A stretch of DNA of 64,000 nucleotides from Trissonchulus latispiculum (lineage: Eukaryota > Nematoda > Enoplea > Enoplida > Ironidae). The position numbers and the translations under genes are program-made. The first letter of the stretch is position 1. Each line of letters begins with the position of its first letter. Shown here in pieces: positions 14,824 through 51,465 of the stretch. The notes beneath the pieces are model-generated. The model worked only from the letters and a program-made list of their open reading frames with translations, did no database searches and was not told the DNA's origin. The stretch covers positions 1 through 64,000 of the forward strand of contig JASAND010018114.1 of assembly GCA_030248195.1 (NCBI GenBank), written 5' to 3'.

Positions 14824-16856
14824 AGTAGTGGGTTATTGAGATTTCTAGGACCACTCGCCACCGCCACCCTCCGTCACCCCTGGCTTATTTGTTTACATTA
14901 TTTGGGAAGTTGGTTTTGCATGCTGGCTTCGATTATTCGTGTGTTTTGACGTCCAGTTTTGCATCCAATTTTACACGTCCAGTTTTGCAGCTGCAGGTTA
15001 TGCTTCAGTGTTTGAAGGCTGCTATTGCTAGCAGTGTTGCAATATTAATTCCGATTGGTTGTTTGAGCAAAGCAAATTTGTAGCCTAGTTTGAAGACTAA
15101 AAATGCATATTAGCCACATGTAAATGATACACTTTTCTTTCTCTTCTAACGTAAAGCAAGCTAGACACATTGGTTTTCCCAACTGAATTTTCAAGCACAG
15201 CCATTATCACGTGTCGTCCATTTGATTGGCTGGTAGAGCAATACTAATTCAAAGCCTAGTCTGAATGCAAAATTTGCAATGTTTACATGCAGTTAATGGA
15301 AGGAATTTTCAAGCAGTGCCATTATCACGTGTTATCCATTTGGTTGGCTGACAGAGCTCTACTAATTCAAAGCCTAGTCTGCATGCTAAATTTGCATTTT
15401 TTATATACGAAATAGAGGCCTGCATTACGGCCCGCGGCCCGGCCTGGCCCGGCCCGGCCCGTGCGCCGGGCCGCGCGGGCCGACGACCAAAGTTCACGGG
15501 CCGGGCCGCGGGCCGAAACTCACGGGCCGGGCCGGGCCGCGGGCCGACAGTCCGGCCCGCCATCAGTTTTTGAAAGATTTAACTATAAAATAGTAATTCA
15601 TATTTTAGCTTAAAATGTTTTGTGTTTCCGTAATATGTTTCGTTCGAACTAACACTGATTTCCCGCAGTAACGTTAGCATTTTATTTTCATGAATAATTC
15701 ATGTATTTATCGTCACATCATTAATGTTAAATCCTCAATTCGCCTAAGTAATTTTAGCGTTTACAACATTAGAATATGAAACTTTTGGAATAGGGCAATA
15801 TATATGGCATTAGTAACAGTGTAAGTATTTTATTTTGGTTTTGATGTATTCGCTGTCTTTTTCAAGAAAACGATGCCTTTTACTTAGAAAAACGCAGTTT
15901 TAAAAAAATCAAAGTTTAGAGTTTATGGAGCAAAGATTTACTACTTCTTTAGAAATGAAAGTTTACTCCTTCTGCACAATTGCATCTTTTTAAAGTCCTC
16001 TACTTCTAATTAGTTTATTTCTCAACTAATTCGTATAAAAATGCGCACTTCACAAAATTTCATCTGGTTTAATAAAAGTACAATATTTAAATGTTGCCAC
16101 TGTAACCTTTTAGGGAATTTTCAGTTTTTTGTTTTTCTAGCGTTCCAGCTTATATACAAAGTGTCAACATGAGGCAGTATCTTTTTGCGGTCCTTTTTGC
16201 TTTCATTTGTAGAACGACAAAAATTATTTTGTCCTTAAAACTGCGTTTAAAAACCATTAAAACTCGAAAAATCAGTTTTTAGAAAGCACACTTTTCCTAG
16301 AAAAAGCACTGAAAATCAGTGATTCTGTTTTTAATAACCAAGCTAAGAAAATTATTTACGTAATTTTGCATTTTGGGACAAATGAAAAAATTTCGTGGCC
16401 CGGGCGGGCCGAAAATTTTGACGGGCCGGGCCGGGCCGGGCCGAAGTATCTGACGGGCCGGGCCGGGCCGGGCCGAAGCAGTTGACGGGCCGGGCCGGGC
16501 GGGCCGAGAAAGATTTTTCACGGGCCGGGCCGGGCCGGGCCGCAAAAATTCGGCCCGTGCAGGCCTCTAATACGAAAAGGATAGACTTTGTGTGAAGCAA
16601 GCTGAGAAAAATTTCAACACTGGAATGCCTTTTAAGACCAATGCATTTTATTGGCTAGTGCAGCTACACAAATTCTAAGCTTCGTCTCAAGTAAGAATTT
16701 TACATTGTAGACATAGGCAATCTTAGCATTCACAACAAACTTCTTCTTTGAGAGTTTTCTTTCGCGAAAGTATGCAGTCTCTGCAACAACACTGCCTGTC
16801 TAGGGGAGCACGTGCAGGGCTGATTCTGATTGGTTGAATTGAAAGTGTAGTTTAAA
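14824..16856. repeat. Element B left terminal inverted repeat (interrupted by a 1.16-kb insertion)
   Basis: Bases 14824-15080 match the reverse complement of about 34790-35055, and 15190-15412 plus 16578-16856 match 33065-33440. Without the hAT-like insertion the left repeat is roughly 0.87 kb. The inner edge is near gtgcagggctgatt, after which the arms diverge. The terminal six bases AGTAGT are shared with element A. Confidence 0.85.
15413..16569. mobile_element. Non-autonomous hAT-like element with G+C-rich arrays
   Basis: Begins tagaggcctgca and ends tgcaggcctcta, flanked by 8-bp direct repeats atacgaaa (15405-15412 and 16570-16577). An 8-bp duplication and TAG-type ends point to the hAT superfamily. 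Both ends hold arrays of ggcccggcc-type repeats interrupted by near-identical spacers such as ccgaagtatctgacgg; the middle is AT-rich and non-coding. The uninserted site is preserved in element B's right repeat near 33332-33345 (reverse complement of atacgaaaagg). Long open frames over the GC arrays are artefacts of the repeats. Confidence 0.9.
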
Positions 16857-17147
16857 GACTTCATAGTTTTAACATTCAAAGTACACAAAATTTTATCATT
16901 TTACACAATGATTCTCTGCTTAATTTTCTACCATCTACAGCTCGTAATTAACAATTTATACACACTTTAAAGGTATTTAATGGGAAGTTCTTACTTTCAA
17001 CGAAACATTTAGTCAATAATTCAAAGTTTTTCATTAATTAACAAATGCAGGCTAATTTTTAGCGAAATCTTAGAAAACAGAAAATAAACTTTTCAAGTAA
17101 TTCTGCATAAACTTTTCAAGTAATTCTGCATTTGTTAATTAAATCAA

Positions 17148-18931: not shown

Positions 18932-19302
18932 TTAAAACGTTTCTTCAAGATCTTCGTTAGGATAAGCCGTGACCAGAAAATTGTGCGATTTGTTGAGCAC
19001 TACCTAAAAATATATTACTGAATTAAATGCAAATAAGAAAATAACATAACTATATCGCTAGCTTTTACTTCCAGAAATGAATGTTCTTTAAATCAAATAT
19101 TCCTTAATTACGTATGCACCTTAATTGTTTTTGTGGGCACTTCATTGCAAGTGACTCCAATGTTGTAGTCAAACTGAAACCATAGGAGCACAATATTTTC
19201 GTTTGAATGGTGAGGCAATTCACACAGCAATTTATCCACTGCAGGAATTCTTCTTTTTATTTCCAAAAAATTTTCCAACTTTTTCGCTGGAATATTTTCC
19301 AT
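18932..19302 (-). CDS. Spliced small protein, 84 residues, function unknown
   Basis: Exon 1 19302-19120 begins ATG and ends at a gtgcat donor; exon 2 19003-18932 follows a tttttag acceptor and ends TAA; the junction is phase 0. The N-terminal half is basic and Leu-rich (KKLENFLEIKRRIP). The C-terminal half includes FDYNIGVTCNEVPTKTIK and, after the junction, VVLNKSHNFLVTAYP. The ending (T-x-x-x-x-V-V-L...VTAYP) faintly resembles the last strands of BECR-fold nuclease domains, but no catalytic set is evident, so this is only a hint. It lies between the RING gene and the start of the polymerase gene in element B. An AATAAA-type signal lies about 50 bp downstream. Confidence 0.5.
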
Positions 19303-19639
19303 GTTTCATAAATACATGCGGCGATACGTATATCATAATTGCTGCTTTGTTAGATTTGATTTCAACTTTCGCAACTTGCCGCTAAATGAAAGTTTTTTAA
19401 ACTGGTCACTAGTGCTAGCTGATACTGGTCTTTCGTGGTATCAATTACATTAATCATTACACCACAGCAAGTCTAGTTGGTACAACGTGGTTTTGCCTGC
19501 AAATGAAATGAGTCATTTGAGGTTTTTAATAGATGATAAAAATTTCGCAACTTTTTGTTGATACAATTGTCTTACCATAGGAATGTAGAATGCAAGTGAT
19601 GCCTAAATGATTCCAGCAAAATCAAAACTTGTGAAATAT

Positions 19640-20165
19640 ACCTTGATGCAACCCACCAAATGTGACAAACAAATGTAGCAATATAGCACAATAATAAGTG
19701 AGTATGATGCAATCCGCCAAGATAACTTACTGCACTAAGTCTAAGAACAGAACTCGGAAGTGGCTCCTATTATCCCAACTGCCCTTCTAAGGGCAACCAT
19801 TTCAAATAGAACTTGTTTGCTTATCGAAACCTAGTTGTTTAAGAACAGAACTCGGGAGTGGCTCCTATTATCCCAACTGCCCTTCTAAGGGCAACCATTT
19901 CAAATAGAACTTGTTTGCTTACCGAAATTGCTGATTGTGACTCAGTCTAAGAAAAGAACTCGGGCTCAAGTTGCTCCTAGTACCTCCCAATAGACATAGT
20001 CCAGCCAGGCGAATCCACCAAATGTGGCAAACAAATGTAGCAATGTAGCACAATAATATGTGAGTATGATGCAATCCGTCAAATGTAACAGACAACAGTA
20101 ACACAATTGTGAATCAAATGGAGCAATCTAGCACAATAATGTGTAAATATGGTGCAATTCGGCAA
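19640..20165. repeat. Short direct repeats upstream of the element B polymerase
   Basis: Two motifs alternate: cccaactgcccttctaaggg inside near-identical blocks at about 19740-19838 and 19839-19920, and a block with gtagcaatatagcacaataa near 19675, 20035 and 20115. The first motif also occurs inverted at 33565-33596, in the right terminal region of the same element. The function is unknown. Confidence 0.7.
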
Positions 20166-20223
20166 ATATATAAGACAAGATGCTAGAGGAAAAGTTTAGT
20201 TCACTGAATTGAGTTCGAAGCAT

Positions 20224-23200
20224 ATGGATCCGTTCCAGTGTCCGCATTGCAAACTAGCATTGTCGCGACGCGACACCCTAATCAGACACATAAAGTGGAA
20301 ACATTCAATCGGAAGAGAAGAAGTATGGACTTGTCTGGAATGAACTTGTCTGGCATGGTGTGAAATGCTTGCAAACTAACCTTATGAGATCGGCATCGAA
20401 AACGCCGACCACACGGAGGCGTCTGCTGTACAAAATCCAGTAGCATGTCCAACAGTGTGGAAATTGAAGGGCCAGCGGCGACAGGCGAACTTGGGATAGC
20501 CAGGGAAAGCTCCACCCATCGCGGAAGTCGTTGGTTGAAAAGTTTGCAAGGATTTCACAGCATTACGTTGCCAAGTGCAGCCATGCCTTGAGTGCCTTTT
20601 GCAGTTCTAAGAAAACTGCATAAGGGATTGGCTCCCTTGCTGCAGCAGCGCCTTTGTGCGTTTTGCACGCTGCAGCATTTGACCTAGTGGCAGGAGTCGG
20701 CAATCTTCATAGCAGAGGTAGTAGGTGGGAGACCCCTCGCGGCTGTGCTCATAAAATTCTAGATTTAACGCTGAGGAGCACAACTAGCGTTATACCCCGA
20801 ACCTAAAGCTATGTCGGAATAGGGTGCTGTCACTTAGGTAATTTCTTTGTAGAACTTCTTACTTTTCAGTGCTTATCCCAATTGACTTTATGAGTGCAAC
20901 CTTCAATGATCTGCAATTTAACCTGATTTAATCTGATTTTAATGCATTTATCCCAACTGATTTTAAAAAAAATTGTGATACATTTGTGTAAATCTGTGCT
21001 AATTTCTAGCGCTAGCTGACAACTTCTTTAACACAGTTACAGTTTGTTCACACTAAAGTGTGGAAATCTATTCTATTTTTGCATCTAAAGTATTTTTTCA
21101 GGTAACTGAAGCAACCAATTGCGCAAATGCTCAATCAGTATCAGTAGACTCAATTATCAGTATAGTTTTGCCAAAATCTTACACAGTATGTGCTTAAATT
21201 AATGATTTGAATAAGTGAACCCTGATTTATTATAGTTGCAAAATTTGTCATAATGTAACAATACATAACAAATTTCACTTACAAAAAGTATTTTCAGTGC
21301 CAGAATTGCGACAGATCATTCACAGAGAAGAAAGCCCTGAATCGACATATTCGAGAAATCCATGAAAGGAAAAATAATTTTGCTTGCTCTGTTTGCTCAA
21401 AATCCTTCTCCAGAACTAACGATTTAAGCAAACATAAAGAAATGCATAACAGGAAAAGGACATTACCAGAGAAATCAATGCCTCCTCTTGTGATTCCCAG
21501 AAAAAGTCCTAGAAAAACGACGACATTTACTCAGACCGCATTAAATAATTTATTGCGAACACTAAAGCTACTACCCACAAATGAACAGGATCCCGTTTCT
21601 TTTCTGAATTCTCAGGCAACAGCAATCAAAGATGCTATTGAAAATATTTTGGAAAACGAATATGGAGTCAAACTCTGGCTGAGCCTCAAAATAATCTTCG
21701 AAAGGGATGTTAACCCGACAGAAACAATGGATGCTCACTTCAACTGTAAGAACAGGATCATACTCCGAGGAAATAATATTGGCAAAGAAATTACAGAAGC
21801 ATTCGCTGAAGTTCACAACAACATTGAAAACTTCCTCCGCCAAAGTTCTGGTTGGATTATTCGAGAGCTTTGTCATTTAGACGTTCACTTTGCTCGATAC
21901 CGTCCTCTCAGAGGATCCTCTTACATTGCTCTACCCTCAAACATAGCGACAAAAAAGCTGTCATTAATGTTCAGAATGGAGACAACCAGTGCTTTAAGTG
22001 GTGCCTATTAGCTGCTCTCCATCCTGTCGCCATCCATGCCGAAAGAATTTAGAATTACACAGCTTACTCAAACGAGTTAAATTTCGCAGGTATTCAATTT
22101 CCAGTAGCCGTTTCAGCTATTCCCAAGGTGGAAGAACAAAACAACCTCCGGATTAACGTTTACAGTCTCAAAAATAACAGTATAATTCCTTTGTACATAT
22201 CCAAACGAGAAGACAACACTTGCATTGATCTGTTACTTATGTCAAAGGGAAGCAACTACCACTACTGCTGGATAAAAAATCTCGATAGACTTCTCTCAGA
22301 TCAGCGTCATGGAAACCGTAAAAAACATTTTTGTCCTCGTTGCCTGATCCCCTGTAACTCGGCTGATAACAAAATTCGACATCTTCAATTGTGTAAAAAT
22401 CACGAAGCTACGAGAGTGGAAATGCCTAGCGACAAATGGTTGACCTTCCGCAATCTTCACAAGATGCAAAGACTACCTTACATAGTAGGTTGCAATTTTA
22501 CTATATACAGCCTGTCTTGAAAAAAATTCATTCAAAAAGTCTTCATTGTGTAACTAATTCAAACAAAAAAATTTATTCAACCGTTCATAATATTATCGGT
22601 TTTTAGATCTACGCCGACTTCGAATGCCTAACGGAGAAATTGCTTGGTTGTCGTGCAAGTAATGATGTTTCCTCAACTCAGAGATATCAAAAACACACTC
22701 CTTGCGGGTTTGGTCTTGTGGGGATAAAAGACTGTTGTGGTTCTCACCCAGAAATTGAAGAAAGTGTCATCTACCGTGGACAAAATGCAGTACAAAAATT
22801 CTTAGAAACTATCATTGAAGTAAGCCCCAAGAATTGCTTCAAATTCTACGAGTGTAGTGCGGAAATTGTTAAGATGAGCTTGTACACGATAAAATGAAAT
22901 TTTTTCAATGTTTAGAAAATCGTTAATATTTCAGAAAAATAACAACTACCAAAGTTCTCTACGTGAAGAAGAGCCGCTTCAATTGCTTGCTTCAAACCAT
23001 TTGCCAGTGAGCGTTCAGTGCGGGATCACTGTCATATTTGTGGTCAATACAGAGGAGCAGCACATAATCAATGCAACTTGGGTTTCCGACTCTCACGCGA
23101 TATTGTTGTCGCGATACATAATTTGAGAAGATATGATACCTTATTATGGAAGTAAGTGCACATGCTTTCACTTCAGGGCCAGAAAGATTTGCAAAATCTG

Positions 23201-25326
23201 AATGTTAAATCCAAATATCATAAAAATCAAAGTTCTTATGCAGCTTATATATTATAGGAAATGGGATTAATCTGTAATGAATTGGGCCTCACCTTGGATT
23301 GCATCCCGAAAGGAATGGAGGATTATCTAAGCTTCACTCTGAAAAAGAAAAGAGTCCGGAAACGACAACCTGACAACAATTTTATCAATGATGAAGCTGA
23401 TGATGACGATGAAGAAGAAAACGGAAATTGGAAGATTAAATTTATCGACACATTTCAGTTCCTGACCAGTTCACTTGAGACACTTGTAAACAACTTATCT
23501 AAGGAAAACCTCGAACTGTTCAAAGCTATGGCGAAAGAATTTGATGAAAACACATTGAAGTTATTGGTAAGAAAAGGAGTGTATCCTTACGACTATATGG
23601 ACAGTTGGGAGAAATTCAGCGAAAACCAGCTTCCCTCTAAGGATAGCTTTTGGAATCAGCTGAATTAGGAAGTCATCAAAGATGAGGATTATGAGCACGC
23701 ACTACACGTTTGGAAGGAGCTTTCTATAGAAAACCTTGGCCAATATCACGACCTATATTTAAAAACTGACGTCTTGCTATTAGCTGACGTTTTTCAGAGT
23801 TTTCGAAATTTTGCGCTACAACATTATGGGCTTGATCCAGCGCACTACTTTACTTTGCCGTCCTTTGCGGGATGCATGCTTCAAAATGACAAAAGTCTGG
23901 CTTGAGCTGCTTCAAGATCCAAATATGTACTTATTCTTTGAAAAAGGTATTAGAGGTGGTATTTCTATGATCTCCCATCGATTTGCTAAAGCCAATAACC
24001 CTCAAGTACCCGGATTCGATCCTTCAAAACCAAATTCCTGGATAATGTACCTTGACGCAAACAATCTGTATGGATGGACAATGGTCCAGAAACTACCTGT
24101 GAAAGACTTCCGCTGGTTAAGTCGACAAGAAATTGATGTCATTGACTGGCTTAATCAAAGTGATAATCAGAATTGTGGTTATGTCCTTGAAGTCGATCTC
24201 GCCTAACCCCAACAACTCCATGATTTACATAATGGTTATCCCCTCGCCCCCGAGATGCTACGAATTACTGGAGAAATGTTAAGTCCTTTTGCCCAATCAC
24301 CTTGCGAAGACCTTGGAACAACTCCATCGAAGGTTGAAAAATTAGTTCCAAACCTTCGTCCCAAAACCAACTATATTATTCATTACCGCAACCTGCGTCT
24401 GTATCTCAAACTTGGATTGAAGCTAACTCATATTCATAGGGTCCTTAGGTTTGATCAACGTCCTTGGATGAAGCCATATATTGAATTTAATACTGAAATG
24501 AGAAAAAATGCTAAAAGCGATTTTGAAAAAGATTTATTTAAGCTTCTAAATAATGCGGTATTTGGGAAAACAATGGAGAACGTACGAGCTTACCAATCCG
24601 TAGAGCTTGTGACAACCGAACGGAAGTTTGTAAAACTGACAGCTAAGCCTAGATTTAATCGCTTTTTTTCTATCGCAATCTGTATTTTCTGAAGAATTAG
24701 TAGCTGTTTCAATGAATCGAGTTTCTGTAAAGTTATGCAAACCTATTTATGTTGGATTTAGTGTCCTTGATCTATCCAAATACCTCATGTATGATTTCCA
24801 CTATAATTATGTTGTAAATACCTACGGTTCAAATGCAAAATTATTGTTTACTGATACTGATTCCTTGTGTTATTGTATTTATGCTGATAATATATACAAG
24901 AACATGTATTGTGATATTGCGTTATTTGATACGAGTGACTATTCACCATCTCATTTTCTTCATTCTACTCAAAATAAGAAAGTTTTGGGTAAAATGAAAG
25001 ACGAGACGGCTGGGAGTCCAATTAGTGAATTTTGTGGCCTGCGTGCCAAAATGTATAGTTTTGTATGTGAAGGTATTGATAAAAAACGTGCAAAAGGTAT
25101 AAAAAAGAATGTTGTAAGGAAATGTATTGCCCATGCCGACTATGTAAATACTTTGCAGCAGCGAACATCTATGTACCATAATATGAATTTGATTAGGAGT
25201 AATTTGCATCAATTGTATAGCGTGCATTTGAACAAAATTAGTTTGTCTTGTTATGATGATAAGCGATATTTGCTTGATGATGGCGTATCTAGTTATGCTT
25301 ATGGTCACTATAGAATAAACTATTAA
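20224..25326 (+). pseudogene. Protein-primed family B DNA polymerase with N-terminal C2H2 fingers; interrupted by introns, stops and frameshifts
   Basis: This would replicate element B. Exon 1 (20224-20322) starts ATG and encodes one C2H2 finger (FQCPHC...RHIKWKH). A phase-0 intron (20323-21297, gtatgg to ttttcag) leads into two further fingers (CQNCDRSF, CSVCSKSF) and then the polymerase body. Further GT-AG gaps lie at 22485-22606 and 22820-22934, each where the intact polymerase of element A is continuous; a third at about 23152-23257 is one base out of phase. Conserved parts: exonuclease YADFECL after 22607, an HNH/endonuclease VII-like RDHCHICG near 23010, motif A DANNLYGW near 24060, motif B LLNNAVFGKTMENV near 24545, and TDTDS near 24853. 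Breaks: frameshifts near 21950, 22980, 23870 and 24665; stops at 22050, 23666 and 24204. It is non-functional as it stands. Confidence 0.85.
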
Positions 25327-25354
25327 AGACTTACTCATTACAAATTTACCAAAA

Positions 25355-26396
25355 ATGGATAAAATCTACTATAGCTTGAAGGAGCCAGGATCGTTAAGTA
25401 GCATCGAAAAGCTTTACAAAGCTGCAAAAGCAGCAAGATTGAATGTCAGCAGAAAAGAATTGTGAAAGAATGGCTGCTGAGTCAAGAAGCCTATACGCTG
25501 CATAAGCTGCGCCATCTAAATTTCAAACGTCGTCGAATAATTACCAAGGGATTAGATGATCTGTGGCAAATGGACCTTGCTGATATGAGTAGTGTAGCTA
25601 AATGGAATGATGGCTTTAAATATATTTTAGTTGTTATAGATACATTTAGTAAATTTTTGTGGGCACTTCCAGTAAAGGATAAAAAACCAGAAACCTAGCT
25701 GCGTTTTCTCAAATTCCTCGTACACCTCAGCATCTGATGACGGATAAGGGAGGAGAATTTTTAAACTCAAAATTAAAAAATTATTGTGCTGACAAAGGAA
25801 TTATATACTATACCAGTCAAAATCCAGATACTAAAGCAGCTATTGCAGAAAGAGTTATCAGAACGCTGAAAGGAAAAATTTATAAATATTTTACTCATTC
25901 AAACTCTTGGCGATATGTTGATGTATTGGAAGATTTAGTCATCTCGTACAATAATTCAAAACATCGTAGTATAGGAATGGCACCAGTTGAGGTTAGCGAT
26001 ACCAACGAAGATGAAGTTAGAGCAAAATTATTTCCTCCAAAAAATCGAACAGTACGTTATAAATTTAAGCTAGGAGATTTGGTTAGGATTACGAAGGAGC
26101 GAGGAGTTTTTCAAAAAGGTTACTTACCACTATGGACGAGAGAAATCTTTTCAATTAGTGAACAAATTCCTAATGATCCAGTTGTTTATAAAATAAAAGA
26201 TGCTAATGATGAAGAAATCGTTGGGACCTTTTACGAGCCAGAACTTCAGAAAATTATACAAGCTGATAACGTCTATAAAGTTGAAAAAGTTTTAAGAAAA
26301 CGAAAATACAAAGGAAAAGTACAATATCTTGTAAAATGGTTGGGATACCCTTCATCGATGAATTCTTGGATTAACGAAGAAGATATTGCCGGCTGA
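25355..26396 (+). pseudogene. Retroviral-type integrase with C-terminal chromodomain, frameshifted
   Basis: This enzyme inserts Polinton DNA by cutting and joining ends. The start MDKIYYSLKEPGS matches LEKIYYDPQSPAA of the element A integrase. The catalytic core is recognisable: LWQMDLADM (first Asp), MTDKGGEFLN (second Asp), then IAERVIRTLKG (Glu). A chromodomain closes it (YKVEKVLRKRK, YLVKWLGYP, SMNSWI), a domain thought to target chromatin. Frameshifts near 25455 and 25695 split it into three frames. Its TGA stop is supplied by the first unit of the following 7-bp minisatellite, so the end of the protein may have been altered when that array arose. It lies just downstream of the polymerase, as the second plus-strand gene of element B. 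Confidence 0.9.
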
Positions 26397-26678
26397 CGAC
26401 TGACGACTGACGGCTGACGGCTTACGGCTGACGACTTACGGCTGACGGCTTACGGCTGACGACTGACGGCTGACGGCTTACGGCTGACGGCTTACGGCTG
26501 ACGGCTTACGGCTGACGGCTTACAGCTGACGGCTTACGGCTTACGGCTGACGACTGACGGCTGACGGCTTACGGCTTACGGCTGACGGCTGACGGCTGAC
26601 GGCTGACGACTGACGGCTTACGGCTGACGGCTGACGGCTGACGGCTTACGGCTTACGGCTGACGGCTGACGGCTGACG
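26391..26678. repeat. 7-bp minisatellite (CTGACGG / CTTACGG / CTGACGA)
   Basis: About forty head-to-tail 7-bp units mixing three variants fill the gap between integrase and ATPase genes. The integrase stop codon falls in the first unit. Confidence 0.95.
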
Positions 26679-26723
26679 TCTTAAAAATATAAAAGTAGTA
26701 AAATAATAATTGCAGCATCCAAT

Positions 26724-27407
26724 ATGCATAAGTGCAATAGTTGTAGTAAAGAATTCAAGCATCGACAAAGCTTGCACAAACATCAAAAGTCACACGATTT
26801 GAAAGAGCCAATCTTTAAATTTCATGCGCCTTTTACAATGATTGTTAGTGGAATGACTGGTTCAGGAAAAACCAAATGGGTGATTGATATGATAAAAAGC
26901 AAGTTGATTGATCCTATGCCGACAAATATTATGATTTGTTACAGTATGCTTCAGCAAGTTTACAGTGACATACCTGCTACTTTGCATGAACGGTTTCCTG
27001 ATGAGTTGCCTGAGAAGGATACTTTGCTTATACTGGACGATTTGATGGCCGAAGTAGGAGATAAACAAATCACTCAGCTTTTCACTAAGATGAGGCATGT
27101 GAACGTGAGCACTATTTTCATTGTGCAAAACTTGTACTTTGAATCAAAATATATGCGTACAGTTTCCCGCAATGCTCAGTATATCATACTGTTCCCAAAC
27201 TATAGAGATGTTTCAATGATTGCGACAATTGGTAGACAAATGTTTCCAAACAAAAAAGATTTTCTGCCAGAAGCCTTTGAAATGGCAACAAAGCAAACTT
27301 TCGGATACCTGGTTCTTAATTTAAAGCCAGGTAGTGATTCAAAATTAAGAGTACTTAGTGGTATCCTGCCAGCAGAAAAGCCTTATGCCTATCTTCCAAG
27401 AATATAA
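26724..27407 (+). CDS. A32/FtsK-like DNA packaging ATPase with fused N-terminal C2H2 finger
   Basis: An intact 227-residue frame. Residues 3-23 form one C2H2 finger (HKCNSCSKEF...HKHQKSH). The P-loop GMTGSGKT is at about 42-49 and the Walker B TLLILDDLM at about 99-107. After it come a sensor-like TIFIVQNLYF and RNAQYIILFPNYRD, as in A32-type ATPases that pump genomes into capsids of Polintons, adintoviruses and nucleocytoplasmic large viruses. The element A homologue shows the same middle and C-terminal blocks (VVLDDLM, NSQYIVLMKNP, RQMYPG). A DNA-binding finger on the packaging motor is unusual to my knowledge; it might help select the genome. It begins a run of closely packed plus-strand genes. 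Confidence 0.9.
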   Translation: MHKCNSCSKEFKHRQSLHKHQKSHDLKEPIFKFHAPFTMIVSGMTGSGKTKWVIDMIKSKLIDPMPTNIMICYSMLQQVYSDIPATLHERFPDELPEKDTLLILDDLMAEVGDKQITQLFTKMRHVNVSTIFIVQNLYFESKYMRTVSRNAQYIILFPNYRDVSMIATIGRQMFPNKKDFLPEAFEMATKQTFGYLVLNLKPGSDSKLRVLSGILPAEKPYAYLPRI

Positions 27408-27437
27408 AAGGTCAATAGTTTAGCTGAAATTTGAAAA

Positions 27438-27740
27438 ATGGCTCAAAAACATATTCATACCCTAACATTTTTGAAATCAGCGCCACAAACTGTTGTAAAT
27501 GTGACTGTATCATCTTGTCCGATTGATTTGATTAATGCTTTTGCAGAAGTTGCATTCAACGCACTGTATGGTGATTTTGCATTAAACCCGTCAGATATAT
27601 CCAAGTTGAGAAAATTTAAAAAAGATATTCTCATTCTAGCAGACAAGAAAGTGGCAATTGTTACTAAACGGAAAACTCTTAAAAGGGATCAACTAGTGCA
27701 TATATTGCTTGAAGTTATGCTAAAATGGCTAAACGATTAG
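27438..27740 (+). CDS. Small conserved Polinton protein, 100 residues
   Basis: It sits 30 bp after the ATPase gene and overlaps the next gene by 16 bp. The N-terminal half is hydrophobic/helical with FAEVAFNALYGDFALN, followed by a basic stretch (SKLRKFKKDILILADKKVA). It matches in position and general pattern the 98-residue basic protein at 45468-45764 in element A (GNVKISQKDKKRLARYKHAL), but lacks the C-terminal GGFLPALLGP segment. In other Polintons small proteins of this type are presumed virion or core components. The function is unknown. Confidence 0.6.
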   Translation: MAQKHIHTLTFLKSAPQTVVNVTVSSCPIDLINAFAEVAFNALYGDFALNPSDISKLRKFKKDILILADKKVAIVTKRKTLKRDQLVHILLEVMLKWLND

Positions 27741-28108
27741 CTCTGATTCCTTCTTCTCCAGTGAAAACAGCACAAGAAGCGATTCAACCTGTTGTGAAAA
27801 TAGTGGAAGAGGAAGGGGCGTCTAACTTAGTCCCACTTTTTCCTAAACATTTACGCAATAAGGCCTCTTTATTCTTGCAACATGTTAATGTTGAAACAGA
27901 CGCAAACGGACGAGTTATTTATCCTGACAAAACAATCGGTTCAAATTTGTATGATCTGGTGAGATATTTTATAACACCTGCTAACTTTAGCCCACAGCGA
28001 CCTCTGGATGCTCCTAAATTTGAACAGTTTCTTGCATCTGTACCCAAAGCAGCATTGGGTGTTGGTCGTACTTCCGAACCGATCAAGTGGTTAAAATATG
28101 AAACCTAG
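27725..28108 (+). CDS. Conserved Polinton core-type protein, 127 residues
   Basis: An open frame from ATG overlapping the previous gene. It aligns with the middle and C-terminal part of the 175-residue protein of element A (44910-45437): FPKHLRNKASLFLQHV with LPPTLQQKGRHLIEHI, then GRVIYPDKTIGSNLYDLV with GEIEYQGQPAVGSRIYDLI. The shared block (N/S-G-x-I-x-Y, G-S-x-x-Y-D-L-I) recurs in many Polintons; I infer a scaffold or core role without proof. This copy lacks about 80 N-terminal residues present in A and the basic C-terminus. It is followed by 73 bp without a gene. Confidence 0.65.
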   Translation: MAKRLALIPSSPVKTAQEAIQPVVKIVEEEGASNLVPLFPKHLRNKASLFLQHVNVETDANGRVIYPDKTIGSNLYDLVRYFITPANFSPQRPLDAPKFEQFLASVPKAALGVGRTSEPIKWLKYET

Positions 28109-28181: not shown

Positions 28182-29034
28182 ATGCCTACCTACTATTGCC
28201 TTAGCTTAGACAACCAGCCAATGGTTGTGTTTCATTCTGGCTGGTCACCATTTAGTAATTTCCACATTGCACCTTTTACGTTGGCTGGCATTGAATACAA
28301 CTGTGTTGAACAATACTATCAAAGCGAGAAGGCCAAATTCTTTAATGATGTCAAGAGTACATAATAACTAAGAGTGTGACAAGCGTCACGCTCTTAGTTA
28401 TCAAGCGAAAAACATCATCTGCACAATAACGGCTGACCCCCCCCCACAACTGAGTATGTGCACTTCAAATATTTTTGCCCGCTATGCCTACGTTCTAAAG
28501 CTCGCTACAGACGCACATTGAACCAACTGACTAGTTGTGTTTTTGAGCTTTAGAACGTAGGCATAGCGGGCAAAAATATTTGAAGTGCACATACTCAGTT
28601 GTGGGGGGGGGTCAGGTGTTATTGTGCAGATGATGTTTTTCGCTTGATAACGAAGAGCGTGACGCTTGTCACACTCTTAGTTATTATGTACTCTTGATGA
28701 TGTGTACACTTATCGTGAGATTATCAAAGCCAAATCACCTCGCGTTCACAAACAACTTGCAAAAGGGATCAAAGGATTTAATAAAGATAAGTGGATGATT
28801 GTTGCTGAAGATATTATGCTTATGGGTCTGAGAGCGAAGTTTGCTCAGAATCAACGGCAACGTGAGCTGTTGATAGAAACTAAAGATTGTACCATTGCTG
28901 AAGCTTCAAAGTGGGATACATATTGGGGTATTGGATTGGACATTAACGATGAAAGGGTTATAAATATAAATGACTGGCCTGGAGAAAACATACTTGGTCA
29001 ATTATTAATGCGTGTTAGAAATGAATATCGTTAA
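28182..29034 (+). pseudogene. NADAR-superfamily (YbiA-like) gene split by a fold-back insertion
   Basis: The N-terminal part (28182-28350) has FHSGWSPFSNFHIAPF, YNCVEQYYQSEKA and FFND. The C-terminal part (28703-29034) has SPRVHKQLAKGIKGFN, AKFAQNQRQRELLIETKD, YWGIGLDIND and WPGENILGQLLMRVR. These are signature blocks of the NADAR family (YbiA, DUF1768), which act on ADP-ribose or riboflavin-precursor N-glycosidic bonds and often sit in anti-phage and NAD-related systems. A 347-bp fold-back element with a TGATG duplication lies between, and the two parts are in the same frame once the insert and one duplication copy are discounted, so the gene was whole before the insertion. The end overlaps the TBP-like gene start (29021). 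In a virus it might counter ADP-ribosylation or NAD-based immunity; this is inference. Confidence 0.85.
28351..28697. mobile_element. Fold-back MITE inside the NADAR gene
   Basis: It starts tcaagagtacataataacta and ends with the reverse complement; arms of about 145 bp surround a short spacer near 28500-28540. It is flanked by TGATG (28346-28350 and 28698-28702). Each arm has a run of eight to nine C or G. No coding capacity. Confidence 0.9.
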
Positions 29035-29536
29035 TGTAATAGTAACTGCTGATTTTAACTGTAATATAGATTTGTACAGTTTACCTAATGTAAAGTATAA
29101 TCCAAAACGTTTTAGTGCTGCAACTTTGAAATTGTCTTGTACCTGTCAAATTTTTTGTAATGGTCGTATTGTATGTCTTGGTGCCAAATCTGTTAATAAA
29201 GCTTATGAAGCTATCAAAGAGTGTGCTGTGTTTTTGACTAGATTAGGCTATCTTGTGCAATCATGGGAGCTGAAAATACAAAATATTGTCGGAACTTGTG
29301 ATGTAGGCAGAAAACTTGATCAGTCTTGGATATATAGCTACTTACGAAAAAACTACACATTAAATTTCACTCCCGAAACATTTCCAGCAATTACTTTGGA
29401 ACTAAAAGCGGGTAGTACTGCGCTTATTTTTAGTGGAAAATGTGTAATTACTGGTAATAAATCTCTACAGCAGCTAAACCAATCACATAAGGAATTGATA
29501 AAAGTTATAAAAGCAAGTAATCTGTCGATTTTATAA
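29021..29536 (+). CDS. TATA-binding-protein-like factor, two TBP repeats
   Basis: About 171 residues, covering the two-repeat TBP core. Repeat 1: NIVNVIVTADFNCNIDLYSL, NVKYNPKRFSAATLKL, then IFCNGRIVCLGAKSVNKAYE. Repeat 2: LKIQNIVGTCDVGRKLDQ, FTPETFPAITLEL, TALIFSGKCVITGNKS. These are the diagnostic TBP signatures: NPKRFxA, the (F/S)GxxxxTG strand after ALIF in each half, and KIQNxVGxCDV. Cellular TBP cores are about 180 residues, so this one is nearly full length but very divergent, and the acidic N-terminal arm is absent. The ATG at 29021 is chosen because it starts at NIVN; it overlaps the end of the NADAR gene. It should bind a TATA-like DNA, perhaps directing late viral transcription. 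Element A carries an orthologue (47495-47998). Confidence 0.88.
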   Translation: MNIVNVIVTADFNCNIDLYSLPNVKYNPKRFSAATLKLSCTCQIFCNGRIVCLGAKSVNKAYEAIKECAVFLTRLGYLVQSWELKIQNIVGTCDVGRKLDQSWIYSYLRKNYTLNFTPETFPAITLELKAGSTALIFSGKCVITGNKSLQQLNQSHKELIKVIKASNLSIL

Positions 29537-29538
29537 AA

Positions 29539-29871
29539 ATGGAATTTGTGACAATAGTTAAGCCGCTTAATGAAATGAAAATCCAACTTGCTACGCCTGT
29601 AGAAGCAAGTCAAATATCACTTCAAACAGTCATACTGCCTATTGATGAATGGGTTATGATTCAGGTAGAGTTCATTGAGCCTCAAATTTTCAATGGAAAC
29701 TACGTCCCGCTACTATGCATTGCTCGTTCAGAGTATCAATCAAGCACTCTAGTGTTTCATGCAACTCGTCAAAGTACAATCGATAGAATTGAAGTATCTA
29801 TTTCTGATCTTCGTGGACAGCTTGTGACAAGTGAAGAGTTGGGGCTGGTTGAAATGATACTAAAAGCTTAA
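29539..29871 (+). CDS. Small beta-rich protein, minor-capsid-like
   Basis: A 110-residue frame two bases after the TBP-like stop codon. Its C-terminal part (STIDRIEVSISDLRGQLV) resembles the ends of the two element A proteins at 42244-43790 (NSIKVHINNHIGRSVHFEYG and DSIEIHIKDDHGMAVDFEYG), which I take as penton-like minor capsid proteins. It is less than half their length. It lies between the TBP-like gene and the basic protein that precedes the capsid gene. A jelly-roll fold is plausible but not shown. Confidence 0.5.
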   Translation: MEFVTIVKPLNEMKIQLATPVEASQISLQTVILPIDEWVMIQVEFIEPQIFNGNYVPLLCIARSEYQSSTLVFHATRQSTIDRIEVSISDLRGQLVTSEELGLVEMILKA

Positions 29872-29902: not shown

Positions 29903-30046
29903 ATGTTTCCAATAAGGTTTAAGCAAATTAATTCTGACGCAAGGAATATTAACGAATACAAGAAGAAAGTGGCTTCCAAGAAAAAAGCAACTGTTAAGAA
30001 AAAGTATAAAAGTAAGAAAAAGAGTACAAGGAAAACAAACTTCTAA
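29903..30046 (+). CDS. Lys-rich small protein, 47 residues (DNA-condensing candidate)
   Basis: The frame begins MFPIRFKQINSDARN and then becomes almost all Lys/Arg/Ser/Thr (KKKVASKKKATVKKKYKSKK). The TAA stop overlaps the capsid ATG (TAATG), a compact arrangement suggesting linked expression. The position just before the capsid gene and the composition resemble small core proteins that package DNA in adenovirus-like virions; this is inference. It is too short for family assignment. Confidence 0.55.
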   Translation: MFPIRFKQINSDARNINEYKKKVASKKKATVKKKYKSKKKSTRKTNF

Positions 30047-31333
30047 TGGCTACATGTGGAAATAAACTGCTTGAATGGAACACCCCAGTTCCTGTTCACG
30101 AAGATGTTATAAGCTCACAGTTGGTTGAAGTACCCTGCACTACAGCCCTTCCTCGCTCAGATCTTAACAACATTGAATTAAAAATCGATAAAACAGATAC
30201 TTTTGTTGATCTGACTTCTTGTTTTTTATTCATCAGAGCTCAAGAAGTACTTAAAAAAGATGGGACACAGTTAGCTGAAATCGATAAAACAGGACCAATC
30301 AATAACTTAGGCTACTCAATGTGGTCCAGCGTAGACTGCCTCATTTCCGACCAATCAATTACATTGAAAAATCCGTATTATCCTTGGTTATCCTATTTGT
30401 TATGTCTAGTCAATTATACAAAACCTGAAAAAGATGCGCTGCTTTGTGGGGCAATGTATGAACAAGACTCTCCTTTGTTTTTTGACATTAACTTGGATGG
30501 AGGTGCCCCTCCAATAGTCGTAAATGAAGGCTTAGAAAAACGATACGATAGAATTAGAGATTCCAAAATTTTCACATTATACACCAGGGTATTTACAGAT
30601 ACAATATTAATGCCAAAACTGCTACCTCCACAAACTGAAGTGAGTTTCATCTTCAAGCGTTCTGAACCGAATTTAATATTCATTGGTAAAAAAAGTGGAG
30701 TGTATTTTAAAAATATCAGATGCCAAAATGTTTGTATCTCGAATTAAGTTGAGTGATCAGGCACTGATACAACATAACAAAATTCTAAATTCTACAGGTT
30801 GCACATATCCGGCTCTTCGCTACGATACTAAATGTCGTACACTCTCTATTGGAGAACAAAATCTGGATTGGGTACCTTATAGTGGTTCCCTTCCAAACGT
30901 CTTCATGGTGAAACAGTCAGCGTATAATGGTTCTTTGCAAAATAATCCATTTTACTTTTTGGATTTTGGTGCTCAACGAATCTATGTTTATAAAAACGAA
31001 ATGCTCCTTCCTCATTCAACTCCACTCCAAACTCTTGGAGAATATAAGTATCCAAATTTGTTTATGGAATTTCTTAGAGGTTTAAACTATAACAATATTG
31101 ATCCTGGGTTTAAGTGGGATGACTACAGAGGCGGATTCTTCATTACGTGCGTTGACTTGACTCCTGATCATTCCGCTGATTGCAACTATATTAGTCCCGA
31201 GCAATATGGGACAATTAGAATTAAAATTGACTATAAAGAAGCTTTGGATGCATCAATTGTCGTTTTCTGTGCAGCTGAATATAATGCACCAAGAGTTAAT
31301 AATAGCAAGAGTACGACACCGTACCCTTGCTAG
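30046..31333 (+). pseudogene. Major capsid (F54H12.2-like) gene, frameshifted, 3' end replaced by a fold-back element
   Basis: The first frame (30046-30747) has LPRSDLNNIELKIDKTD, GYSMWSSVDCLISDQ and ILMPKLLPPQTEVSFIFKR. A second frame (from about 30685 to 31333) carries the rest: SAYNGSLQNNPFYFLDFG, then FLRGLNYNNIDPG, then GFFITCVDLTPDHSAD. These align with SEAFNGSQKHNPLEFQHC and YTIFAFDLTPDNIDT of the element A capsid. The frame change falls at an A7 run near 30690, a likely slippage or sequencing-error site. The last about ten codons read into the fold-back element at 31312-31772, so the native C-terminus is lost. Length before breakage fits the 439-residue homologue. It would form the virion shell. 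Confidence 0.75.
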
Positions 31334-31772
31334 TGTAATTGGCCTGTCATATGCTCGGAACATTAAGGCCGAAATCTCGGGGGGGTCACGGTTAACACAG
31401 TTAACCATGTGTTTATATGCGTTTGAACTAAAATGAATCTGATTGGCTAATCCCCTACCTTATGTCAAAATTACGTGTATAAGCTGACCCCCCCGAGATC
31501 TCGGGGGGGCTCAGCTTAACGTTGTTAAGCGTGTGTTTATATGCGTTTTAACTGAAATGCATTTGATTGGTTACTTAGCTATCGTAGCCCTCACCAGTGC
31601 ATTTCAATAGCAGCAGCTAAGCAGCCAATCAGATTCATTTTAGTTCAAACGCATATAAACACATGGTTAACTGTTAACCGTGACCCCCCCGAGATTTCGG
31701 CCTTAATGTGCCGAGCATCTGACAGGCCAATTACACTAGGAAGAGTCCCGTGTCGTACTCTTCCTATCATCT
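31312..31772. mobile_element. Fold-back MITE at the 3' end of the capsid gene
   Basis: Left arm aagagtacgacaccgtaccc... and tagtgtaattggcctgtc pair with gacaggccaattacactagg and cgtactctt on the right. Inner arms contain acatggttaactgttaaccg-type sequence. Runs of seven C/G and a perfect palindrome around ccgagatctcgg (near 31497) lie inside. The outer bases aagagtac are shared with the fold-back element in the NADAR gene, suggesting one family. No clear target duplication. Confidence 0.8.
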
Positions 31773-31880
31773 ACTCTTGAATGCACTCATGAAGCTTGAC
31801 AAAAATAGAAATCCTTCTTGGGAAAAGGTATAAAAGCAATTAACAAATTTGATGACATAAACGAAACATAAACATAAACG

Positions 31881-33064: not shown

Positions 33065-35055
33065 ACACTTTGAATTCAACAAATCAGCCCTGCACGTGCT
33101 CCCCTAGACAGGCAGTATTGTTGCAGAGACTGCATACTTTCGCGAAAGAAAACTCTCAAAGAAGAAGTTTCCTGTGAAGGCTAAAATTTCCTATGTCTAG
33201 AATGTAAAAATCTTACTTGAGACGAAGCTTAGAATTTGTGTAGCTGCACTAGCCAATAAAATGCATTGGTCTTGAAAGGCATTCCAATGTTGAAATTTTT
33301 CTCAGCTTGCTTCACACAAAGTCTATCCTTTTCGTATAAAAATTGCAAATATAGCCTTTAAACAAGGCTTTGAATTAGTATTGCTCAACCAACCAATCAA
33401 ATGGACGACACGTGATAATGGCACTACTTGAAAATTTTGTTAGGACAAAAGTTTGGTTTACACTGAGAAGGTTGTCGGTAAATGACTATGGGAAAGCGGT
33501 AAGAGCATGCAAGTTTGGAACATAACACTTTCAGTTGATGTCAGAAAATGTGAAGTTCTATTAAGATGGTTGCCCTTAGAAGGGCAGTTGGGATAACAGT
33601 TAGTTTTGCTCATCTAATATTTTGACTGATTCAGAAAGCCATCCTTTTGTTGAGATCGCAGTAGCAGTAATCGTAGTCACAGTTTTGTCGCTGAAAACAG
33701 AATCTTCACAGTATCCTCAAAATCCAGAAGAGTTGACTGGCTTCTAGCATCTGCATTAGAATCAGGAAAAGTAGATGTACAAATTCCCCAAAGCTGTCAG
33801 ATGTGGAGATTATGTTGAAATCCATCTCAATTCAAGCGTTTTCTCAAGACTCCTTTTGTTCAGATCGCAGTAGCAGTAATCGTAGTCACAGTTTTGTCGC
33901 TGAAAACAGAATCTTCACAGTATCCTCAAAATCCAGAAGAGTTGACTGGCTTCTAGCATCTGCATTAGAATCAGGAAAAGTAGATGTACAAATTCCCCAA
34001 AGCTGTCAGATGTGGAGATTATGTTGAAATCCATCTCAATTCAAGCGTTTTCTCAAGACTCCTTTTGTTGAGATCGCAGTAGCAGTAATCGTAGTCACAG
34101 TTTTGTCGCTGAAAACAGAATCTTCACAGTATCCTCAAAATCCAGAAGAGTTGACTGGCTTCTAGCATCTGCATTAGAATCAGGAAAAGTAGATGTACAA
34201 ATTCCCCAAAGCTGTCAGATGTGGAGATTATGTTGAAATCCATCTCAATTCAAGCGTTTTCTCAAGACTCCTTTTGTTGAGATCGCAGTAGCAGTAATCG
34301 TAGTCACAGTTTTGTCGCTGAAAACAGAATCTTCACAGTATCCTCAAAATCCAGAAGAGTTGACTGGCTTCTAGCATCTGCATTAGAATCAGGAAAAGTA
34401 GATGTACAAATTCCCCAAAGCTGTCAGATGTGGAGATTATGTTGAAATCCATCTCAATTCAAGCGTTTTCTCAAGACTCCTTTTGTTGAGATCGCAGTAG
34501 CAGTAATCGTAGTCACAGTTTTGTCGCTGAAAACAGAATCTTCACAGTATCCTCAAAATCCAGAAGAGTTGACTGGCTTCTAGCATCTGCATTAGAATCA
34601 GGAAAAGTAGATGTACAAATTCCCCAAAGCTGTCAGATGTGGAGATTATGTTGAAATCCATCTCAATTCAAGCGTTTTCTCAAGACTTTCAGCTTAAGTT
34701 TATATGACTTCAGTTCCAGATTCCAGTATTGACGCTCAAAAGTACCTTCTAACTATTAAACTAGACAGATAGCTTTAACAAATTAGAAACAAGCTGCTTT
34801 AAAAACAACCAATCGGAAGCAATATTGCAACACTGCTAGCAATAGCAGCCTTCAAACACTGAAGCATAAACTGCAGCTGCAAAACTGGATGCAAAACTGG
34901 ACGTGTAAAATTGGATGCAAAACTGGACGTCAAAACACACGAATAATCGAAGCCAGCATGCAAAACCAACTTCCCAAATAATGTAAACAAATAAGCCAGG
35001 GGTGACGGAGGGTGGCGGTGGCGAGTGGTCCTAGAAATCTCAATAACCCACTACT
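33065..35055. repeat. Element B right terminal inverted repeat (with tandem expansion)
   Basis: Bases 34790-35055 and 33065-33440 are the reverse complement of the two halves of the left repeat. Between them 33440-34790 holds a five-copy 209-bp tandem array absent from the left arm. The end is cccactact at 35055, giving AGTAGT when read inward. Confidence 0.85.
33640..34688. repeat. 209-bp tandem repeat, five copies
   Basis: The block gatcgcagtagcagtaatcg recurs at 33654, 33863, 34072, 34281 and 34490, exactly 209 bp apart. Copies appear nearly identical. It lies inside the right terminal repeat of element B. Confidence 0.97.
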
Positions 35056-35827: not shown

Positions 35828-36039
35828 AGTAGTATAAAAACCCGGGTTCCAGCGCACTTAGCTAATAGTTCTGGCTTCTACTGGCTTTGCGCTTTTACAC
35901 ACTAGTAGCTACAATGAAGTTCTATACCCTTAGCCTTAAATTGAATTAGCTTTTTACGACCTAAGGTTTGTAACAACTATGACCTTGAAATTCTAACTAG
36001 CCTTAAAATCCGTAGTAGTATAGGAGAGTTCAAATGGGA
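35828..36039. repeat. Element A left terminal inverted repeat
   Basis: 212 bp, the reverse complement of 51254-51465 with a few mismatches; outer end agtagtataaaaac, inner end caaatggga. Confidence 0.95.
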
Positions 36040-40062: not shown

Positions 40063-40527
40063 CTATGCAGACTTTTTATGGGATTTCTGGCAGTAAGGTG
40101 TGGGTTCTAGTGTCACCCGATCAACAAAGGTCTTGACAATGTTATCATTAGTGTCGCTTCTTCGCCTCAGATAGTTGACAATTGAGTCCATTGATCTTCC
40201 TCGGGACCTGTGGTGAAGGAAGTATATACAGTACTCCCCACATACATCAGTAGTGAAATCTTGCAACTGAATGCGATTATACTGTAGTTCCCTCCTGCCA
40301 ATGAATGACATGAAGAGGAGAGGTGGTAGTCCGTAGCTGTCAAAATATTCTACCCTGTTATCCTCTAGCCACATTGCAACCCAGTGTTCACCAGCCTGAC
40401 CGGATGCCTCAGTGTTAGCAACAAGACATCCTGGACGGTACCGTGGTAGCTTATCACTGGGAAATACTCCTAGGAGAGGAACTTTGCAATCTTTCCTTAA
40501 GGTCTCAAGGATCTCACGAGTATTCAT
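40063..40527 (-). CDS. Adenain-like cysteine protease (virion maturation)
   Basis: 154 residues. The catalytic set of the adenovirus-type protease family is visible: His in GEHWVAMW, Asp in VEYFDSYG, then Cys in TDVCGEYCIYFL, in the expected order and spacing. In adenoviruses, Polintons and adintoviruses this enzyme cleaves capsid and core precursors. The stop end is close to the secreted-protein gene, and its start overlaps the capsid gene stop by four bases, so the two are probably co-expressed. No inactivating changes seen. The equivalent gene was not found in element B. Confidence 0.88.
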   Translation of the reverse strand: MNTREILETLRKDCKVPLLGVFPSDKLPRYRPGCLVANTEASGQAGEHWVAMWLEDNRVEYFDSYGLPPLLFMSFIGRRELQYNRIQLQDFTTDVCGEYCIYFLHHRSRGRSMDSIVNYLRRRSDTNDNIVKTFVDRVTLEPTPYCQKSHKKSA

Positions 40528-41843: not shown

Positions 41844-41888
41844 TGAAATAATTGTTAGTATATTACTATAATTACATAGGGCGGGTTT

Positions 41889-42275
41889 TTATGGGCTGTA
41901 AATATCGCGCTTCAATCTCTTAACTTTGCGTCTATGTGGTCTGCTTCCAATACCTTCCCCTTGCTGTATTGCCTTTCCACTGTTCTCCAGCAGGCGTCCA
42001 ATGGCTGCCTTCCCATGTCGTTTGAGTGCTTCTTTTGGATCTTCACCTCTATTCAAGTAATCACGAGCCACATCTCCGGCTGTCTGAAAGGCCTGCCTGC
42101 CTGCCTCTAGACCTACACGACGTACTACTGGCCAAATAAAGCGTCCAATACCTCTCAAGAGGCTACCTAGGCCATCTCCTCGCTGATACCTTTGGCCGGC
42201 GTAGAAACCAGACCCTCTCTGTATCAGGTGCAGTTGCCAGTCTTCAACGGTTTCTGGATGATATCTGGTCCTCAT
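41889..42275 (-). CDS. Small basic core-type protein, 128 residues
   Basis: A Gly-rich start (QRGSGFYAGQRYQRGDGLG) leads into an amphipathic stretch (LLRGIGRFIWPVVRRVGLEA), then AGDVARDYLNRGEDPKEALK and a basic tail (RPHRRKVKRLKRD). It lies between capsid and minor-capsid genes and overlaps the latter by 32 bp. The amphipathic helix plus basic tail is reminiscent of adenovirus internal proteins that lyse membranes or bind DNA; homology is not demonstrated. A relic homologue is at 10259-10510. Confidence 0.6.
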   Translation of the reverse strand: MRTRYHPETVEDWQLHLIQRGSGFYAGQRYQRGDGLGSLLRGIGRFIWPVVRRVGLEAGRQAFQTAGDVARDYLNRGEDPKEALKRHGKAAIGRLLENSGKAIQQGEGIGSRPHRRKVKRLKRDIYSP

Positions 42276-47494: not shown

Positions 47495-47998
47495 ATGATT
47501 GTTAATGTTGTTCTCAGTGGACGCTTTGACAGGGAACTTCACTTAACGAACATTCCTAACATTAGACTCTATCGTGGATTTATTGGCGGTAGTCTGAAAC
47601 ACGAGGAGGCGACTTTCCAATTATTCACCAGTGGTAGTTTTGTTTGCCAATAAATCAATCAATGTAAATCAATCGAACGAGCTAATCAGTGTATTCGTCA
47701 ACTAGCAGGCGCTCTTAATGTCGGTATTCTTCGCGAAGGCGAAGTGGTGAACCTGGTGGGATCCTTCTCAGTTGGCAGGTATATAGACCTAAGGAATTTA
47801 TATGAAAGTATCAGGCATACCCATCAAGTTTGCTATGAACCGGAGCTATTTAATGGTCTCACATGCAAGATTGCCGGGGTTACTGCACTCATCTTCCACA
47901 CTGGCAAGGTCATATTAACTGGCGCTCGAAGTGAGTCTGCCCTATCAGATGCAAGGTCTTTAGTTAATAAGAAGGTGATAAGGTTTAAAGTTCATTAG
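47495..47998 (+). pseudogene. TATA-binding-protein-like factor with one internal stop
   Basis: In one continuous frame from ATG 47495 to TAG 47996. Repeat 1 starts MIVNVVLSGRFDRELHLTNI and includes ATFQLFTSGSFVC; repeat 2 has VNLVGSFSVGRYIDL, PELFNGLTCKI and ALIFHTGKVILTGARSE, a strong match to the TBP C-terminal repeat. A TAA at 47651-47653, at the end of repeat 1 beside a short aatcaat duplication, interrupts an otherwise open frame; it might be a recent mutation, a sequencing error, or a read-through site. The gene is on plus, opposite to most element A genes and divergent from the membrane-protein gene. It is a distant orthologue of 29021-29536. Confidence 0.85.
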
Positions 47999-51253: not shown

Positions 51254-51465
51254 TCCCATTTGAACTCTCCTATACTACTACGGATTCTAAGGCTAGTTAG
51301 AATATCAAGGTCATAGTTGTTACAAACCATAGGTCGTAAAAAGCTAATTCAATTTAAGGCTAAGGGTATAGAACTTCATTGTGGCTACTAGTGTGTAAAA
51401 GCGCAAAGCCAGTAGAAGCCAGAACTATTAGCTAAGTGCGCTGGAACCCGGGTTTTTATACTACT
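51254..51465. repeat. Element A right terminal inverted repeat
   Basis: Reverse complement of 35828-36039, ending ggtttttatactact at 51465. Confidence 0.95.

Follow-up and report, generated by a model that had tools for sequence, protein, structure and literature searches.

One of the described systems closest to the locus reported here is KSHV ORF24, the late TATA-binding protein (TBP) mimic of a gamma-herpesvirus. In the available parts of the report on it, ORF24 serves virion genes, uses the variant TATA box TATTWAA, works with host RNA polymerase II (Pol II), is a multi-domain protein extending to residue 752, and belongs to a six-protein complex (PMC12529657). Giant viruses and mirusviruses, with Heterosigma akashiwo virus 01 and CpV-BQ1 as examples, are likewise large eukaryotic DNA viruses with their own TBP, according to viral models in BFVD and to sections of two reports (PMC10132985, PMC12085832). 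A Polinton-encoded TBP was not found in print by a search of limited reach, which included parts of PMC10675990 and PMC12220804, and this is a weak indication that the literature lacks one. The initial annotation of the present locus held that such a factor is not a standard Polinton component. The statement fits the consulted portions of PMC11071308, PMC8097293, and PMC4028283, yet TBP genes are common in the Polintons of the genome described below.

The window is the whole stretch of DNA that was analysed, 64,000 nucleotides of the nematode Trissonchulus latispiculum (GCA_030248195.1, contig JASAND010018114.1, positions 1 to 64,000), and contains two Polintons, elements B and C. Element B is bounded by terminal inverted repeats (TIRs) at 16570..16825 and 33082..33337 (inverted pair I1). 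Its TIR arms of 256 nt are 96% complementary, and its outer span of 16.8 kb falls in the 15-20 kb range of Polintons/Mavericks, which have long TIRs. The TIRs of element C are located at 35828..36039 and 51254..51465 (inverted pair I2, 98%). No matching 6 bases that would mark a 6-bp target duplication stand beside the TIRs of element B or C as aligned, and the ends are possibly some bases off. The window shares with known Polintons/Mavericks and adintoviruses the TIRs, a DNA polymerase B (in element C), an rve integrase with chromodomain, a packaging ATPase, and capsid candidates.

The polymerase and integrase of element B are in pieces, and the copy is damaged. Its integrase occupies 25462..26396 (+) in two ORFs (25462-25698 and 25737-26396) with the chromodomain at the end; the first ORF matches Pfam rve at E=1e-5, which is below the cut-off, and the second matches Chromo at E=1.7e-12. 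DNA polymerase B (polB) is represented by pieces only, and the one piece scanned has no Pfam match. The inverted repeat I7 pairs 24684-24809 with the polB of element C, and the polB region of locus L031 matches 23744-24134. The virion half, all on the + strand, begins with the packaging ATPase (26724..27407, Pfam Pox_A32 E=2.1e-8), a small ORF that is conserved in the family copies (27438..27740), and an ORF with weak similarity to ORF 44910 of element C (27725..28108; ~32-36% over ~55-85 residues at L021, L023, and L029). A NADAR gene follows at 28182..29034, and its C-terminal ORF matches Pfam NADAR at E=1.3e-29. It is split by a MITE-like inverted-repeat insertion of 347 bp (28351..28697) with 153-bp arms (98%) and 5-bp target repeats TGATG, and element B is therefore not an intact copy. 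Behind the TBP gene lies an ORF at 29539..29871, which is similar to the C-terminal part of a minor-capsid-like protein of other lineages (profile E=2.3e-10, five sequences searched). Two overlapping ORFs (30046-30747 and 30683-31333) at 30046..31333 are without Pfam match and are the candidate for the major capsid protein gene. They are related to the capsid candidate of element C, which matches at these ORFs in family copies at ~19-28%.

Several other features were seen in and around element B. A tandem array of the 7-bp unit CGGCTGA (41 copies, 26390..26678, Tandem Repeats Finder) lies directly upstream of the TATAAAAG box of the ATPase gene and stops ~10 bp short of it. The aligned family copies have similar repeats, and the array could be a factor-binding array or a replication signal. 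Near the left end, 17823-18200 (-) holds a RING-finger-like ORF (PF13920 E=1.5e-4, below the cut-off). A nest of inverted repeats (I5, I10, I11) at 31290-31779, behind the capsid ORFs, is probably another small inserted element. Outside both elements, stretches at ~9915-11453 are 64-75% similar in DNA to the Polinton virion genes of L031/L035 and are perhaps a third, partial Polinton. The interval 58356-62693 (-) contains an ORF of 1445 aa that we take to be of LINE type, with an N-terminal GDIETNPGP motif that is presumably 2A-like.

The TBP gene of element B occupies 29021..29536 (+). Its translation runs without internal stop over 171 residues and contains all four sequence blocks that were quoted earlier as diagnostic, including KIQNIVGTCDV. 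Pfam PF00352 matches in two stretches with 113.8 bits (E=3.4e-33, cut-off 22.9 bits), a result that rules out a chance ORF, and TBPs in the PDB match in sequence with E values from 1.6e-21 to 1.7e-14. The AlphaFold2 model (pLDDT 91.9, pTM 0.80) has two strand-helix repeats in a saddle fold. In a Foldseek search of the PDB, the top 44 matches of this model are TBP chains or TBP fusions (E<=4e-11), with TMq of 0.88 (1qna), 0.89 (1cdw), and 0.90 (6uep). Plant and human TBPs are thus found at 0.88-0.90, whereas the viral models of BFVD are less similar (TMq <=0.79, identity <=23%). The protein is a bare core without N-terminal domain. A PHROGs search gave no match at E 0.1, and a protein database search with the element B TBP alone listed ten proteins, none of which was recognised as a Polinton protein. 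The initial annotation had read two TBP repeats from the letters alone and had named the absence of a significant profile match, or of two repeats in a predicted structure, as grounds for giving up the claim. Both the profile and the model bear the claim out. On its sequence and predicted structure, the ORF is a gene for a two-repeat TATA-binding protein.

The TBP gene is closely set between its neighbors: its start overlaps the NADAR end (29034) by 14 nt, and 2 nt separate its stop at 29536 from the next ORF. A search of the genome (733.8 Mb) with the element B TBP, in which 150 of 782 candidates were scored, gave at least 152 matches. Over the whole genome the matches to TBP number in the hundreds, and with copies on dozens of contigs an assembly artefact is ruled out. 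Among the matches listed, at least 47 stop-free TBP copies have 78-100% identity and almost the full length. Of lineage B, twenty copies were read, all picked from the stop-free matches, and their open TBP frames are for that reason no evidence in themselves. The order NADAR, TBP, ORF 29539, and capsid is kept in 20/20 of them, and 18/20 have the ATPase and both small ORFs as well. NADAR thus belongs regularly to the gene order of lineage B, and it is open at 166-180 aa in 10/20 copies, a count made with a motif by which some open copies can be missed.

Selection has acted on the protein. With the window copy included, the median dN/dS of TBP is 0.146 over the 200 of 210 copy pairs with dS >0.1, pairs that are not mutually independent (codon bootstrap 0.099-0.186), and the two TBP repeats give 0.158 and 0.129. 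The five closest copy pairs, when summed, show 25 amino-acid vs 11 silent changes, and constraint is much weaker there, a pattern that fits selection while the element is active followed by neutral decay once a copy has inserted. The initial annotation had assigned the gene to the Polinton because of its overlapping ends. The NADAR overlap, the constant gene order, the low dN/dS of ~0.15, and a clade of its own (see below) uphold this assignment, and at the sequence level they strongly support the TBP gene as part of the element.

Element C also carries a TBP gene, at 47498..47989 (+), which the initial annotation of the element B gene did not mention and which occupies a different gene position from that of element B. 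This gene is broken by one in-frame TAA stop and is 91% identical to the TBP of L033 (83% by tblastn). Element C encodes an rve integrase (E=5.3e-15) and a polB (DNA_pol_B_2, E=7.6e-17) by Pfam. Its capsid and adenain-type protease candidates are without Pfam match. A genome search with a TBP of the element C lineage, with 150 of 875 candidates scored, gave at least 151 matches, and roughly two thirds of those listed are without stops. Every distinct TBP type read, as chosen from the match lists, adjoins Polinton genes; the types read one by one are those other than L003-L007, L009, L010, and L052-L055. In lineage C1 (L033, L034, L042, L044-L047), TBP and the ATPase are on opposite strands, ~1 kb apart. 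In lineage C2 (L031, L032, L035, L038-L041, L043, L048, L059, L061, L062), it adjoins the adenain-type gene, with polB on the other side where in view (L031, L061). In lineage D (L036, L037, L049, L056-L058, L060, L063), it stands right behind the integrase and is followed by a minor-capsid-like ORF where checked (L036, L056, L057, L060, L063). The label minor-capsid-like is based on position and on similarity to ORFs 42244 and 43026 of element C, not on a named profile. The dN/dS of TBP is 0.22 in C1 (9 pairs) and 0.15 in C2 (3 pairs).

A tree of 27 rows places 17/17 element TBPs in one clade (support 100/98). The remaining rows, which all fall outside the element clade, are eight TBPs from databases, the TBP of the host, and that of one large virus. 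The split of B+C vs D within the clade has a support of only 82/74, and long-branch attraction may be the reason why the clade is placed beside TBPs of some protists. The topology suggests a single old capture of TBP by Polintons, which would have been inherited within the elements since then. The host TBP gene (C14517) gives 331 bits against human (1cdw), 298 bits against yeast (1tbp), and 296 bits against plant TBP (1qn3), scores by which alone the analysis took the host for an animal, as a COX1 search gave matches without a usable locus. The host gene is intron-split, unlike the element TBP core. The element TBPs compared are only 22-32% identical to the host TBP, which rules out a host TBP pseudogene or a recent capture. 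Mobile elements can pick up host genes, and TBP is a host gene, so the element TBP could be thought of as a passenger copy without function in the element. The low identity and intronless core, the hundreds of copies in a single clade, and above all the selection data (dN/dS ~0.15) contradict this explanation and make it scarcely credible. In the IMG/VR collection, no related locus was recovered by scans with the single TBP sequence, with an alignment of element TBPs, or with the ATPase, the capsid, and the integrase, and the collection is therefore uninformative on Polinton TBPs. A wider TBP alignment recovered two loci there, which by eye are large-virus fragments with a SNF2-like helicase and an AAA-type protein, and one of them (L001) also has a PolB-like protein by eye.

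Several genes in the virion half of element B are preceded by a common box. The sequence TATAAAAG occurs at 26688..26695 (-36 from the ATPase ATG, kept in 17/18 copies), 27403..27410 (-35 from ORF 27438, 18/18), 29506..29513 (-33 from ORF 29539 and still within the TBP gene, near its 3' end, 19/20), 30005..30012 (-41 from the capsid ORF, 17/21), and 31829..31836 (-52 from ORF 31881, as read in the window copy). All 5 boxes are on the coding strand, 33-52 nt upstream of ORFs of the virion half, and there is none in the polymerase/integrase half (16826-26600). At the ATPase, ORF 27438, ORF 29539, and the capsid gene together, the box is kept in 71/77 copy-by-gene cases, and it is absent at ORF 27725 (0/19), NADAR (0/21), and TBP (0/21 copies). 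A TATAWA site is present before the TBP gene in 21/21 copies, but it lies inside the NADAR coding sequence. Where a box overlaps the TBP coding sequence, codon variation is low but not unique (5th lowest window). In the whole window, TATAAAAG was observed 12 times vs 5.0 expected, and 4/12 of these are in one spaced repeat (13642-14267). The chance of boxes at 5/11 lineage B starts is ~2e-4, a value to be read with the fact that the box motifs were selected after inspection of the sequence. The lineage B box is well supported by this conservation across aligned copies. TATAAAAG is a good site for host TBP too, and for this reason the lineage B boxes need no viral TBP.

Lineage C tends to a partly different box. 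In element C, CATAAAAA is found by motif scan at 40073..40080 (-) upstream of ORF 40031 and at 41886..41893 (-) upstream of the capsid ORF 41843, and over the entire window it shows no enrichment (6 seen vs 7.9 expected). The motif CATAWAA/G precedes 4/18 (P=0.005) and 3/10 (P=5e-4) of the lineage C starts and TATAWAA/G none, in a small, post-hoc sample in which homologous genes enter more than once. CATAWAA/G vs TATAWAA/G is thus distributed as 7/28 and 0 in C, and as 0 and 5/11 in B (Fisher on 5/0 vs 0/7, p=0.0013, with cases that are not all independent). CATAAAA is kept in 7/7 and 5/7 copies at two C1 ORFs and in 2/2 and 3/3 copies in C2 of the L031 type, with none at other genes. The boxes are absent at the capsid and adenain-type genes of the L035 type (0/5 each) and at C1 ORF 44910 (0/7). 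The contrast between the lineages is not clean, because some C starts have TATAWA and some B starts have CATAWA. The C site at ORF 2122, CATATAAAC, contains CATAWAA/G plus TATAAA, with TATAWA in 5/5 copies, and the C1 ATPase has TATAWA in 3/7 copies. CATAWA in lineage B precedes ORF 27725 in 9/19, ORF 29539 in 4/20, and NADAR in 1/21 copies. The lineage C box CATAAAA is accordingly a lead from these motif counts.

The reading that we favor, with a probability of roughly 0.58, is that the TBP of the elements selects promoters of virion (late) genes and would do so with host Pol II and independently of host TFIID. The Polintons of this animal carry their own TBP, which would have been inherited in the elements from one old capture. 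In an active element, this TBP would bind the boxes (TATAAAAG in B, probably CATAAAA in C) ~30-50 bp before virion genes, bend the DNA in the manner of cellular TBP, and recruit the host Pol II machinery. The packaging and capsid genes would thereby be transcribed without the need of host TFIID. The data show the TBP fold, the place of the gene in the element, selection on the protein, and the conserved boxes; from these we infer the single capture, the binding to DNA, the late timing, the recruitment of Pol II, and the independence from TFIID. The element TBP would resemble KSHV ORF24 as a virus-encoded TBP with late virion genes, a variant TATA box, and host Pol II, as far as the available text on ORF24 goes and with a late role that is presumed for the Polinton. 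In contrast to ORF24, it is a bare core in a small integrating element. The initial annotation had proposed a role in promoter choice or in late or cytoplasmic transcription. Promoter choice and late transcription agree with the data circumstantially only, by the occurrence of TATAAAAG before virion genes and by the partial change of this box in a second lineage. Cytoplasmic transcription is not supported, as the listed ORFs of element B, inspected by eye, include no gene recognised as an RNA polymerase, and host Pol II is for the same reason the likely partner. That the TBP serves a non-host (viral, cytoplasmic) RNA polymerase, for example that of a helper virus, would be in line with the TBPs of giant viruses among the BFVD matches. 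With boxes of the Pol II TATA type and no polymerase gene seen in element B, such service is very improbable.

The positions of contact residues were assigned by alignment. As in eukaryotic and archaeal TBPs, the two-repeat saddle in lineages B and C has four Phe and two Asn; element B has 4/4 intercalating Phe and both central Asn, and among the compared rows of B and C the only exception is one Phe -> Tyr in L059. Lineage D keeps both Asn and lacks the third intercalating Phe in 4/5 rows. In contrast to cellular TBPs, the element TBPs are element-borne and have shorter loops, and in B and C helix 1 lacks ~4 residues. The positions I194 and V203, presumably the altered-specificity positions of yeast TBP, are occupied by T/S and by T, respectively, in the rows of B and C, and L059 retains I at the first. 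Residue 205 (L or R) does not follow the box type across the element TBPs compared, and no contact residue is therefore claimed as the cause of CATAAAA.

The TFIIB-contact triplet E-E-L is T-E-T in B and altered in D. Together with the lack of an N-terminal domain, this would suit a decoy or dominant negative that occupies host TATA boxes or binds TFIIA, TFIIB, or TAFs unproductively and thereby lowers host transcription or the antiviral response. On the other hand, lineage C retains the triplet, or nearly so, and the conservation of boxes before virion genes of the element itself suggests use in cis, which leaves a decoy unlikely.

Lineage D offers a further arrangement. Among the 150 listed TBP matches, 27 sit in open frames of 388-437 aa, and the five long-frame loci read (L036, L049, L056, L057, L063) have the integrase and then TBP and the minor-capsid-like protein in one frame. 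The single open frames, of ~400-437 aa, are L036:2785-3975, L056:305-1570, L057:704-1924, and L063:107-1417. With this arrangement TBP may be virion-associated and packaged, whether to bend DNA in an architectural role or to initiate transcription when the particle enters. However, the minor-capsid-like part has its own Met in the four types examined and may be translated separately, and the two genes are separate in lineages B, C, and L060, so that a virion-associated TBP is possible but improbable. The favored role in promoter selection could be extended to a history in which one TBP acquisition gave rise to at least three deep lineages, the boxes (TATAAAAG vs CATAAAA) changed along with it as a private virion-gene code, and in one lineage a capsid-fused TBP enters with the particle. 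This extension is conceivable but doubtful.

To our knowledge, no factor for the separation of early and late genes is described in Polintons, and the element TBP opens a way to ask how these elements might achieve it. The many diverged TBP copies and boxes in one genome are a natural experiment on the co-change of TBP and TATA box. If the proposed role is true, small (17-kb) integrating DNA viruses, too, can carry their own promoter-recognition factor, and not herpesviruses and giant viruses alone.
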